Assembly (NCBI GenBank): GCA_021201335.1
Contig: JAJQFD010000001.1
Location: 1 to 64,000, forward strand
Direction: 5' to 3'
DNA length: 64,000 bases
Origin: Bacteroides sp.
GTDB lineage: Bacteria; Bacteroidota; Bacteroidia; Bacteroidales; Bacteroidaceae
In this document: piece by piece, positions 4,106 to 62,700 of the stretch
How positions within the stretch are numbered: position 1 is the stretch's first letter
How the letters are laid out: each line of letters begins with the position of its first letter
Made by a program: the position numbers and the translations under genes
Notes under the pieces: model-generated
What the model saw: the letters and a program-made list of their open reading frames with translations, nothing else
Database searches by the model: none
Told to the model about the DNA's origin: nothing

Positions 4106-4237
4106 ATACTTGCGCCTGATCCTGTTACAAGAACAGCGCCGTTTTTCAACAAGAACAGCGCTGTTTTTAATCAAGAATAGCGCTAATCTTTGTCAAGAAC
4201 AGCGCTGTTCTTTATATTGTATTAAGCGCAAGTCTGG
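4106..4237. repeat. Six-unit intergenic array, 22-bp period, GCGC-centred
   Basis: Four near-identical units begin CAAGAA(C/T)AGCGC at 4128, 4150, 4172 and 4194, exactly 22 bp apart. The fourth contains an 18-bp perfect palindrome, AAGAACAGCGCTGTTCTT (4195-4212). The outer units carry ACTTGCGC (4108-4115) and its inverse GCGCAAGT (4226-4233), so the array is bounded by an 8-bp inverted repeat. GCGC positions are 4112, 4136, 4158, 4180, 4202 and 4226. There are no unique spacers, so it is not a CRISPR. Its role is unknown; it could be an array of protein-binding sites or a REP-like element. Confidence 0.85.
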
Positions 4238-18909: not shown

Positions 18910-18912
18910 TTG

Positions 18913-18986
18913 AGCCTCTTGTCGGATTCGAACCAACGACCCCGAGATTACAAATCACGTGCTCTGGCCAACTGAGCTAAAGAGGC
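18913..18986 (-). tRNA. tRNA-Thr (anticodon TGT)
   Basis: On the minus strand the acceptor GCCTCTT (18986-18980) pairs with AAGAGGC. The D-arm is GCTC...GAGC, the anticodon loop TTTGTAA gives TGT (Thr, ACA codons), and the T-arm has TTCGAAT. The discriminator base is T and CCA is not encoded. The anticodon stem has one U-U mismatch. It lies one to two bases after the SRP RNA and just before a terminator, so both RNAs come from one transcript. Confidence 0.93.
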
Positions 18987-18987
18987 A

Positions 18988-19086
18988 AGTGGGTAAGCTT
19001 ACTATATCGCGCCGCTACAACCAACTACCTTTGCTGCGATCAAGCCCTGGAGGATTCGAAGGGAGCTGGCCGTATAGGACTTACCC
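18988..19086 (-). ncRNA. ffs: Signal recognition particle RNA, small bacterial type
   Basis: On the minus strand the RNA begins GGGTAAG (19086-19080), pairing with CTTACCC (18997-18991) to close a long hairpin of about 99 bases. The apical part contains CAGGGCTTGATCGCAGCA. This has the same 18-base layout as the SRP domain IV core: CAGG on the 5' side, AGCA on the 3' side, a short helix and a loop. A perfect promoter lies directly upstream and tRNA-Thr directly downstream. It scaffolds Ffh for co-translational targeting. The loop is not GNRA (it reads TTGATC), a difference from E. coli. The identification rests on motif layout, not a covariance search. Confidence 0.8.
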
Positions 19087-19091
19087 GGGCG

Positions 19092-19121
19092 CAAAGGTAG
19101 ATATTTTTGTTAAACCAACAA
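19092..19121 (-). promoter_or_regulatory. Promoter of the SRP RNA-tRNA operon
   Basis: On the minus strand, -33 TTG (19121-19119) and -7 TACCTTTG (19099-19092) are separated by 19 bases. The RNA 5' end inferred from pairing (19086) is six bases after the -7 box, in good agreement. Confidence 0.8.
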
Positions 19122-36551: not shown

Positions 36552-36899
36552 AGCAGAAAACCTGTAAATGATGCACGGGAGTGTGTTAAATCAATCTTTA
36601 AAAATAGCTAAGTGTCAAATTATCAAATTGCTAAATTAGAGGGCACTGGTTTTGCGTATTCGGGATAAAATAAAGAAAGATAAGATAAAACGGAATCCAG
36701 GAAATTAGGAAACTACCAAAAAGTAAATCAATACAAATTTTAATTTAATTCCGATAAGTAAATATCCAAAAAACCCGCCATTTATCATCAATAAACTCAA
36801 CATCTTCATCTTATTGACAATCCACCTCCTCTCCTACTTCGCCTTGATTTAGAAACTCTAAACGTATGTATATTCACTAAATATACTGAACTATCTTTC

Positions 36900-37031
36900 T
36901 ATACTTAATCAACAAGTATTTAAGGCGGATGAAGTAAGCATTGAAGGCTGATGAAACTTTTATTTAAGCGGAATGCAACCGTCATTTTTCACAATAAATA
37001 GTTGCATTTACTCGTGAAAAAAGCGTCATTT
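36900..37031. repeat. Degenerate six-unit array, 22-bp period
   Basis: Six consecutive 22-bp windows each end in (C/T)ATT(T/G): positions 36917, 36939, 36961, 36983, 37005 and 37027 mark the start of that word. Three also begin AAG with GCGG or GCTG followed by ATG (36922, 36944, 36966). The wording differs from the GCGC arrays at 4106 and 59279, but period and unit number agree. Conservation is weak, so it is less certain than those two. Confidence 0.5.
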
Positions 37032-37353
37032 TAGTTAAATACCGTTACTATACCTTTCGTTTTTTTACATTTCAGTGCTAAAACAATATTTTTAAAGAAA
37101 GGCTCCGTTAGTGAAAATCTCCGTTTTTCATCATTATGATTATTACAAGCAAAATTTGATGACATATTCATAGTCAGGCATTCTCTTTAGAGAAGTAATC
37201 ATCCTCTTTTCCGAAAGGTATTCTTTAAATAAGTTAAATACATTGAAATGTGTCTGTTTATCAAATAATATTTCCACATTTGTCTTATCTAACAATTCTG
37301 TTAAACAATTTAATTAGTTCCTTTGTTATTATTAATAAGATAAGCTCAAACGT

Positions 37354-59073: not shown

Positions 59074-59714
59074 AGCTCGCTCTAAAGGATTCCGGCTTAA
59101 AAATACAATTTATCAAAAAGAAGAAATTCAAGCATTTATAGTTTCTTTTTTTCGAAAAATCGGTTGTTTTACTTATGTGCAATTCTTAAACATGAGCCCT
59201 TTTAGAGAAAAATAATGCATATTTTTTGCAAATTCAATCATTTTTCCCTTCTATAAAGAAGAAAAACAGACCTATATAGACTTGCGCAGCCCTGCTTACT
59301 AAACCCGCGCAGCCCTAGTCTTTAGATTTGCGCAGCCCAACTTCCCGGATTTGCGCAGCCCAACTTCCAGAACTTGCGCCGTTCAAGTCTGGGAACTTGG
59401 GCAGCGCAAGTCCGGAAGATACCTATTTACTCTTCTGTTTTTTTGCTGGAAGCAACAAGAATTCGACGAGCTTGAAACTATCAAAATAGAATAAAGTCAT
59501 CTTCTTCTCTATCCATATCAACAGAAATATCGATTGAAAACACACTTTTTGGCTTTCATTATTACCAATTCTTTTCTTTTTGATTTCTCCAAATCTTATT
59601 TCCTTGCGATTTTATAAAGCTTTGTCTGTTATGACCCACAATATCTTATTCTGAGAGTGTTCAAATATCAATGTGACATTTTGCTTTTTTCCAGGCTCGC
59701 TATTTCTGATAATT
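59074..59714. other. Intergenic region with the second GCGC array
   Basis: About 640 bases between two convergent genes. It contains the 23-bp array (59279-59416). The rest is AT-rich; ORFs here are short and without features. Confidence 0.6.
59279..59416. repeat. Six-unit intergenic array, 23-bp period, GCGCAGCCC core
   Basis: Six units start at 59279, 59302, 59325, 59348, 59371 and 59394, exactly 23 bp apart. Units 1-4 share GCGCAGCCC. Units 5 and 6 keep the frame but turn to CAAGTCTGGG and GCGCAAGTCCGG. The outer ends are GACTTGCGC and GCGCAAGTC, inverted. The ends and the word GCGCAAGTC(T/C)GG are shared with the array at 4106-4237. There are no spacers, so it is not a CRISPR. Confidence 0.87.
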
Positions 59715-62700
59715 TTAAAATGGAATGGTATTCAGCCTCCGATCCACCAGAACACCATCCATTATTTTTAGGTTAAACTTCACATCTCGCCTAGCTTTCA
59801 ATTTCAGTACAAATAATTCATGAGTACCCTCCAACCGCTCCTGATCACCCAAATTTACAAAGGTAGGATAAAGAGATTTGGTGCCGTTGGTATGTAATCT
59901 GTCATTGGTCAGATTTTCCATTTGTTTCATTCCTAAACTCTCAACTCCAACAAACTCATAGTCCTGAGGATTATAAGGTAAAGCAAAACTCAGCGCATTA
60001 ACTTCGCACAAACTTTTACCTTTCACTAAAATGTTCACGATCTCCCCTTGTTTGTAAGTTTGTTTATCTGTACTGATTTCTATCATACCTGCCAGCCTCA
60101 GAGTGTCTGTACGGGTAAATTGAATTCCCCCATCTAATTGTGTAGCTACAACAGAGATATCATACGCATCGATCAGACCGTTTTTATTCATATCTCCGTT
60201 GCTGATATACCCTTCAAAATCGGCGTCGCCTTTTCTCAATCCGGTATAGTTTGTATAAGATATCAAATCGTTCCTGTCAATTATTTTATCGTTATTGATA
60301 TCACCCGGCAGAAAGCTCTCCGTACCTGGAACTTTGAATATATATAATTCTTTGCCCGAACCAAAGTCTCCCACGGCTTCTGTAACTCTTACCTTGATAT
60401 AACGTACTGCCGGCTGATCTTTGAATGTAAATATTTTCGTTTCAGCATTCTTTTCCCATTCAAAGTTGCCTGCTTCCGTCCAGTTGTTCTTGTCGGGGGA
60501 ATAGTAAACAAGACCTTTCAGGATCGTACCATTGCCCGAGTTATCTCTTGGCAGATAGTGGAATTTATCCAAATTATTAATCGAATTCAGGTCGACAATC
60601 AGATCAAATGGAACTGCCTTTTTACCGTATCTAGTATGCCGAAGTTCACCTTCCTCAAAATCGAACAATTTATTGAGTGATCGTCCCTGATTCTCACAAG
60701 TTGTTTCGGCAGTAATTCCTTGTATGGCAAACTCCAACGGATTATTTTGGGTTCGAACGGTAAATACAGCCCAATCCGAATATCCGTCTTTGTTCGCTGC
60801 TCTAAGTTTAAAAGAATAATATGTTTCGGGTAGTAATCCATCAAAAAGCAATTCTGTGTTTTGAATAGTACTGTAAAGTATACCATTGAATTCTATTTCA
60901 TAGAAATCTGCATTGGATACAGCATTCCAAGTCGGTTTTACAGTATATGCTTCTGTATTCTCTGCCGTTACCTGTGCATTTACCGGAGTAGACAAAGCAC
61001 CGGTTTTCACGAGAAAGTTATTTGCCGGAAGAAATTCAAAATCGTCTATTTTGAAAACAAGCGGCTGGGTAGTTATATCGACGGATTCGAGTCTGACGAG
61101 TAATTGTGGATTTTTACTTATATGTTTTTTCTCAAACTCACTGCCGGGGGTTGCGTGTTTATTCAGTTCGGGAGCGGCATTATAGTAATAAACATTCTCA
61201 CCTTGAGCAAATTCATCGGGTGAATTCACTTTCGCCAGTTTCACATTTTTCTTTCCAATGGTTGCTTTTATTTTCAGAGGCTCTTTTGTTACGTTTACCC
61301 TAAACTCGGTGATCTTATCTTTTACAAAACCATTGAAATTACCTGAGGTAGGATGAATGGTAATAGTTACCTTGTTTTTTGAATCCACACTTGACTCAAT
61401 GAGCGTCCAAGTGCATTTTCCATCCCTATATTCTTCCGTTGTTCCGTCATCATCGTATTCGGTAAACGAACTATAACCATCAGGGTATAGTTCATAAATA
61501 CGGAGATTGTTATTGACTTCTGAAACATTATTGCTTGGGTTGGTCATAGGAATAATGGCACCGCTTTTCACAAATACAGGTGTCTTCCAGATGGGGGCAT
61601 TAAAGTTATTTATTATCTGTCCACCCTTATAAATATCTCCAGTAAAATAATCTATCCACCTTCCCAGGGGCAGATAAATGCCATCCCGTATATCATTTCC
61701 ATTCTCATCTGCTTTCGTTTCCTGATAAATAGGTGCTACCAAAAAGAAAGGACCATATAAAAACTGATACTGAGTGGCTTTACCAAGAGTATATGTGTTG
61801 GGATCATGCAGAAACATCGCCCTGATCATGGGCAAACCATCCACCGACTGCCTGGCTATGCTGTAAGCATACGGAAGAAGTTCCGATTTGAGTTTAAGAT
61901 ACCAGCGGTTAATCGAGGTTGCAGGTTCTCCCAATGCATGAGGGTATTTTTCATTAGCACCCCATCCGTCCATATTCAGTTCCATGGGAGTGAAAGTTTT
62001 CCATTGAAAGTCTCGGGTGTTCACCTTGAAGTTTTTACCTCCGAAAATACCGTCCATATCAGATGTGATATTTGGATTTCCGGAAAGCCCCGACCCGATA
62101 TAAGTAGGTATATGAAACCGAATGTACTCCCAATTACCGCCTGTTTGGTCGCCCGACCATATTCCGGCATAGCGTTGGGTACCTGCCCATCCATCGAGAG
62201 AAATAATAAATGGACGGCTGTTACTACCGTAGTAAGTCATAATCTGAGCTACATCTGTTATGCCGTTCAAGCCAAAAGAGTACCCTGCTCCTACCCATGC
62301 CACGTCGGTTTTCAGTACACGTACTCCGGCATCCCGTACTTCTTTCACAATATCACGTTGTAACAATGCGCTGATACCTTCTTTCGGGTGTAAATCCGAT
62401 TGTGTTCACAAACCTATTTCCACTCCATTTTTGCGGGCATAGTCAGTTAGGTTTTTCAGGTTTTGTATGTTTCCGTCCAATGTTTCTTCCTGTCCATATC
62501 CGGCACCGTATCCGTCGTTGGGCAACAACCATCCTAAAGGCATGTCGTGGTTCTTATACCGATCTATTACCGCACGGGCAGAAAATTGGTAATTATCTTT
62601 TTCACCATTGAGAGATTCTTTGATTCCTCCGTTATCTTTCTGGCTTTCTTTGTATTTCTTGCCGTCTTCAAATAGGATTCCAGCTTCATCTTCCTTCCAG

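Follow-up and report, generated by a model that had tools for sequence, protein, structure and literature searches.

REP and BIME sequences are short, imperfectly palindromic intergenic units that occur with RAYT transposases, while operator or parS-like sites can be embedded in the gene for the protein that binds them, as parS is in spo0J. A closer architectural relative has been described in Porphyromonas gingivalis, where the intergenic BrickBuilt element comprises a leader, a spacerless array of 23-nt imperfect units and a tail (PMC4596501). In the parts of that description considered here, 19 loci occur in one strain, with a varying number of units and predicted stem loops; the ends are inverted (GAGACCTTTGCA / TGCAAAGGTCTC) and accompanied by target duplications in some copies, the units are called homologous across loci and the element is called species-specific (PMC4596501). 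A search of one open-access library returned BrickBuilt and papers mentioning it, and nothing on 22-bp intergenic arrays in Bacteroides among the papers listed.

The window analysed here, comprising 64,000 nucleotides at the start of contig JAJQFD010000001.1 of a Bacteroides sp. genome (GCA_021201335.1), contains two short-period tandem arrays, designated A and B. Array B lies within a longer non-coding element of about 540 bp on the minus strand (approximately 59165-59701), and is probably the core of an interspersed element combining a satellite-like array with an operator-like site of a core XRE regulator, the XRE protein being the putative binder. The parts of the element are as follows:

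59574-59701, minus strand: 5' arm, with the motifs TGTCA/TGATATT, AGAAT...GATATT, AAAATCGCAAGGAAAT and AAATCAAAAAG, from matches to the arm models R1 and R2 and from alignment
59588-59656, minus strand: operator-like core within the arm, the same 69-bp site as in the XRE gene, from a matrix of XRE genes of other species (4.9 bits)
59418-59573, minus strand: stretch between arm and array, with conserved ...GATAGTT and CTTCCAGCA motifs, from alignments
59280-59417, minus strand: array B, six 23-bp units (ACTTGCGC-N-GCCCAAGT-N6 and its reverse), from lag-23 identity and the sequence
59165-59279, minus strand: 3' side, ending near ATAAGTAAAA, the counterpart of GTTAGCAAAA, from the leader alignment and the 3' ends of relatives; this boundary is approximate and the correspondence was drawn by eye
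59111-59164, minus strand: outer stretch alike only in related copies of this genome (ATCAAAAAG motif), from the leader alignment

Array B has a lag-23 identity of 0.70. Over lags from 15 to 41, 0 of 2000 Markov shuffles came up to this value, and the shuffle maxima averaged 0.35. The initial annotation had described six units in strict 23-bp register, which is the case (unit starts at 59280, 59303, 59326, 59349, 59372 and 59395), with the correction that its start at 59279 is one base early. Each unit consists of ACTTGCGC, one base, GCCCAAGT and six bases, and the final unit is reversed (ACTTGGGC-A-GCGCAAGT in place of ACTTGCGC-A-GCCCAAGT), which accounts for the last of the GCGC-to-GCGC steps of 23, 23, 23, 23 and 28 bp. 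The octamers ACTTGCGC and GCGCAAGT, previously taken for inverted ends, do bound both arrays, but in array B they are the two half-sites of the unit, occur inside other arrays as well and are not the ends of the element, which lie about 115 bp to the left of the array and about 285 bp to its right. A genome-wide search for pairs of ends 100-160 bp apart had been proposed as a check; the pair ACTTGCGC...GCGCAAGT at 90-120 bp gave four instances against none for the reversed control. Clustering of unit number at six had also been put forward for testing, and it does not hold strictly: the 31 GCGC chains in the genome contain between 3 and 7 GCGC, a count that is a proxy for units and includes two chains in coding sequence that look like chance. 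Triple GCGC at 21-24-bp steps was matched 51 times in the 4,997,259-bp genome and 13 times in the reversed control, with matches overlapping within arrays. CRISPR-like spacers are absent, the array units abutting at 22-23 bp. A palindromic unit was considered as the defining feature and set aside, as it applies to some wordings, array B's included, and is not general (mean z of 1.0 over 42 arrays, with p<=0.05 in 8 of the 42).

Two models of the arm were used: R1, a sequence-only model of its outermost part built from 11 sequences, and R2, a broader model built from 39. Both match the arm in the window, R1 at 59574-59690 (E 4.2e-21) and R2 at 59575-59701 (E 3.2e-11). A coding remnant was considered. 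Several copies of the arm can be read by eye as ...R-I-x-Y-L...K-I-A-R-K-stop; other copies carry stops and a frame shift, because of which the element is treated as non-coding. Five wordings of the arrays were distinguished in this genome:

F1, the wording of array B: 23-bp ACTTGCGCAGCCCAAGT
F2, the wording of array A: 22-bp AAGAACAGCGCTGTTCTT
F3: 22-bp ACTTGCGCCYGYAAGT
F4: nearly uniform GCGCTATCGTATTTACAGAGTA
F5: 22-bp CTTGAGCCGCGCGTT

Seven F1 and four F3 arrays have the same conserved, spaced flank motifs (TGTCA..TGATATT..AGAAT..AAAATCGCAAGGAAAT..AAATCAAAAAG..TTTTTGATTAT..CTTCCAG), and five other F1 arrays (L036, L038, L042, L045 and L049) are without them. Array A (4108-4233) is built of a 22-bp unit, AAGAACAGCGCTGTTCTT plus four bases, between short symmetric flanks, and matches neither R1 nor R2; no arm match was found at any F2 array. 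Arrays A and B had been assigned to one class, an assignment that is given up here because the unit length and the short symmetric flanks of array A, together with the missing arm, place them in different classes. The class of array A, with AAGAACAGCGCTGTTCTT units and nested-palindrome flanks, was seen at about nine loci in the genome stretches examined. One F4 array (L039:3147-3238) is a nearly perfect 22-bp GCGCTATCGTATTTACAGAGTA array, far more uniform than the others in this genome.

The surroundings of the arrays were also inspected. Among 29 arrays of all wordings, 25 overlap no mechanical open reading frame of at least 90 aa, and the neighbouring genes, taken as the longest mechanical frames, are convergent in 9 cases, divergent in 6 and co-directional in 14; a terminator between converging genes was rejected as a general role on the grounds that just 9 of the 29 are in a convergent setting. 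For one flanking gene, the nearest relative with a name was from Bacteroides sp. 51, at 57%. The gene adjoining the element in the window (59715-62366, minus strand) encodes a GH family 31 protein that carries an F5/8-type C domain and weakly matches the dockerin type (E 5.3e-5). A degenerate third element is present at 36594-37112, adjoining a gene that by eye resembles LexA/UmuD. It matches the arm weakly (R2, E 3.9e-4), has three 22-bp units, likewise degenerate, at about 36914-36979, and ends 3' in GGCTCCGTTAGT at 37101-37112. Elsewhere in the window, a tRNA-Thr gene directly follows the gene for the Bacteroidales small SRP RNA (18912-19093, minus strand).

The arm is widely distributed. 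At E<=0.01, R1 finds at least 22 places in this genome and occurs in 90 of 157 genus genomes, while R2 finds 48 places here, the XRE gene included, so that the further copies anticipated by the initial annotation do exist. Beyond the genus, R2 has matches at E<=1e-4 in 71 of 301 family genomes, spread over 13 of the 30 genera; across the order, with a threshold of E<=1e-3, it matches 23 of 295 genomes. The first of these counts overstates the number of element-bearing genomes, because some matches, such as pairs separated by about 1 kb, come from the XRE locus, a point checked in one locus (L345). Among the weak matches at the level of the order, five (L233, L237, L241, L246 and L248) proved to be the XRE gene and one (L235) looks by eye like a piece of a polymerase gene; spread outside the family therefore rests on genome G261 and, weakly, on G277 (L256). 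In G261, which belongs to another family, at least 11 copies (L286-L296) are well conserved and alike over a longer stretch; their units are of 21 bp. The repeat family as such is nearly certain: its copies occur in the genus, reach other genera of the same bacterial family and extend to one or more further families of the Bacteroidales. The copies of G261 are followed by another repeated stretch, and recent movement might well be sought there.

What lies downstream of the arm is constant in period and variable in wording. For 90 arm loci (L128-L157 and 60 further arm matches from this genome and its genus, a part of all matches), the best lag from 15 to 41 was sought at each locus and called significant when it exceeded all 40 shuffles. 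A significant tandem array was found downstream at 67 of the 90, with a best lag of 22 in 58 cases, 21 in five and 23 in four, and was lacking at the remaining 23; on the outer side of the same arms, taken as control, 4 of 90 were significant, at lags of 33, 33, 20 and 24. These loci are not independent, since many are mutual orthologs or paralogs, and at least five of them (L185, L195, L212, L215 and L217) are the XRE gene, L217 being counted among the 67. Unrelated wordings follow the same arm, for instance GGCGGCCGCGAAGTCACGAGTC, GGAAGAACAAACTTTTCTGAGC and GGGCAAACTGACTGGAAGAGCT, and a GGCTACACCC wording is common to related species (G045, G066, G122, G167 and G169). With one mismatch allowed, the F1 word ACTTGGGCTGCGCAAGT occurs 20 times in this genome, once in one other genome and in none of the remaining 156 of 158; for the F2 word AAGAACAGCGCTGTTCTT, two mismatches being allowed, there are 28 occurrences here and a single one in each of 18 other genomes, which is about the rate of the reversed control. 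The core of the interspersed element changes its wording between lineages and keeps a period of about 22 bp. Inheritance of the period, combined with drift and homogenisation of the units, accounts for the constant lag with no need for a measuring device, and a device measuring the period is compatible with the same data. In one orthologous pair with the same flank and arm, the 22-bp array is significant in L197 and not in L198, indicating that arrays may be lost while the arm stays.

The ends of the element are sharp in several sets of dispersed copies. Six copies at unrelated loci of one genome (G065) agree at 86-91% between TTGACA and GTTAGCA and do not resemble one another beyond these limits, and the same behaviour was seen in five copies of G098, G064 and G096 and in four of this genome. 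The initial annotation had envisaged one class of element in which the ends are conserved and the units vary but are homogenised internally. This description suits array B and reaches far beyond this genome, with the amendments that the ends are others than those proposed, namely an arm of about 130 bp on the 5' side and a 3' end near GTTAGC, and that the A/B pair from which the idea started does not fit it, because array A lacks those arms. Other copies occupy orthologous places in several species, and together with the dispersed copies of the G065 type they indicate that dispersal has occurred, and not recently where examined. In one relative, the left flank is swapped exactly at the 5' end of the element (L172 against L144 and L175). 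In a comparison of L199 and its flanks with 157 genomes, the two neighbouring genes were found, never side by side among the matches listed, and neither this nor the alignments of copies revealed an empty site, a target duplication or a mobilising gene.

Some of the arm matches fall inside a coding gene, which specifies an XRE-type HTH protein of 155 aa (L048:5274-5741) with the Pfam domains HTH_3 and Phage_CI_repr; no NCBIfam model scored above its cut-off and no solved relative was found for it. The gene stands directly before genes read as pyrK and pyrD and was detected in 134 of 157 genus genomes, or 90 of the 93 good ones. The arm-like site lies in the variable linker of the protein and is also present in XRE genes of other families. 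In 36 orthologs (the 30 most similar loci and six found earlier, related and so not independent events), third codon positions within the site keep their nucleotide even where the amino acid differs: codon -11 ends in A in all 36 while specifying six amino acids, and codon -8 ends in C in 34. The same-codon fraction is highest, at 0.985, in a five-codon window of the site, the median of 128 such windows being 0.617; elsewhere in the gene the best windows are also high but stay below the site, at 0.91 and 0.89.

The relation between gene and arm was examined with a 69-bp matrix built from the XRE genes of 35 orthologs, with this genome's own gene left out and the elements unseen, which was run over 515 kb of this genome in stretches chosen around arrays and hence enriched in elements. 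The own XRE gene ranked first (69.5 bits) and the next nine matches were all element arms, the window's element being the seventh after the gene (4.9 bits). Element arms, the window's included, make up 11 of the 13 best non-gene matches, the other two being non-element places, and 4 of the 15 arms in the scanned stretches fall outside these 13. In sequence terms, the arm core is the same nucleotide site as the nucleotide-conserved stretch inside the XRE gene. Of 30 XRE loci (L306-L335), 20 have their second-best matrix match on the same strand at 961-999 bp upstream; two of these 20, L310 and L312, score alike and may be near-identical. This genome's own locus has no clear upstream matrix site, and in a locus of another genus (L345) a second site that scores strongly (45.3 bits) is found on the opposite strand at a distance of 1012 bp. 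The upstream site is located several hundred bases before the start codon, and two sites around a promoter suggest autoregulation.

Taken together, these observations suggest that a single protein would recognise the site both in the XRE gene and in the elements, the likeliest candidate being the product of that gene. The XRE protein would regulate its own synthesis through the site in its gene, often also through the second site about 970 bp upstream, and would in addition bind the element arms. By its anatomy, the array is a satellite-like tract kept beside the site; it may be a minisatellite whose units are homogenised locally through slippage or unequal exchange, in which case its period would be inherited while its wording drifts. 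New copies may have been seeded in the past by an activity acting in trans. The elements would then constitute dispersed docking sites of a core regulator, a regulatory or chromosomal site network, or alternatively selfish DNA that borrowed the regulator's operator. Since the arm matches a selected site in the gene of a core regulator, a candidate binder can be named and the function of the repeat becomes testable. A more far-reaching version, which we put forward only tentatively, is that this core, single-copy Bacteroidales protein binds chromosome-wide, that its operator, written in the wobble positions of its own gene, was copied into tens of intergenic elements per genome, and that the hypervariable 22-bp-periodic array might serve as a second, sequence-tolerant module read by length and not by wording, by the bound protein or a partner. 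Were this so, the elements would represent a new kind of regulatory or chromosome-organising element.

The best surviving alternative, somewhat unlikely in our judgement, is a purely selfish repeat resembling MITEs, which are likewise short, non-coding, multi-copy and dispersed; the arm would be the site of a transposase or recombinase, and an ancient copy in the XRE linker would have been kept as coding sequence. The sharp boundaries of the dispersed copies and the position of the site in a variable linker agree with it, but a dead insertion would not keep third positions through 36 orthologs, and the presence of the site in XRE genes of other families and the frequent second site upstream argue in the same direction. 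The six aligned G065 copies, moreover, have unlike ends without terminal inverted repeats, and by eye no target duplications were seen at them. Less probable again is that the core acts as RNA, the transcribed elements and the XRE messenger having in common a motif for an RNA-binding protein or small RNA. Nucleotide conservation inside a messenger would fit this equally well, and promoter activity has been reported for BrickBuilt in the parts of its description considered here (PMC4596501). Against it, no consensus RNA structure was found in the arm, no Rfam family reached gathering score over the window's element, where matches below that score were at chance level, and the upstream XRE site stands several hundred bases ahead of the start codon. 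Nor did a promoter motif of the -33/-7 type, sought near the arms, cluster there or peak at a fixed position. An ordinary local minisatellite, arisen by tandem duplication of a chance sequence with no element around it, would share the imperfect tandem units but is very improbable, as the same arm precedes arrays of the same period and unrelated wording in many genomes and the dispersed copies have ends in common.

The reading of array B as a satellite-like tract beside a regulator's site can be set against the known systems. The wording of array B is short, imperfectly palindromic and intergenic, as in REP and BIME sequences, from which the elements differ in their strict tandem period, their conserved arms of more than 100 bp and a palindromy that is not family-wide. 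As with parS in spo0J, a nucleotide-selected site lies inside the gene of a DNA-binding protein and has more copies around the chromosome; here, however, the copies are located in dispersed satellite-array elements, the protein is of the XRE family and not a ParB, and its binding is putative. With BrickBuilt, so far as the considered parts of its description allow, the likeness is in the leader-array-tail architecture, represented here by an intergenic arm, a 21-23-bp array and a 3' side. By eye, the ends are of TTGACA and GTTAGCA type and not GAGACCTTTGCA / TGCAAAGGTCTC, no inverted ends or target duplications were seen, the wording changes between lineages at a constant period, and the XRE-gene site belongs to the element, a link of which no mention was found in those parts of the BrickBuilt description (PMC4596501). 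On account of these differences in ends, inverted repeats, lineage wording and XRE link, the element described here is filed as a variant of a BrickBuilt-like architecture rather than as a member of BrickBuilt itself.
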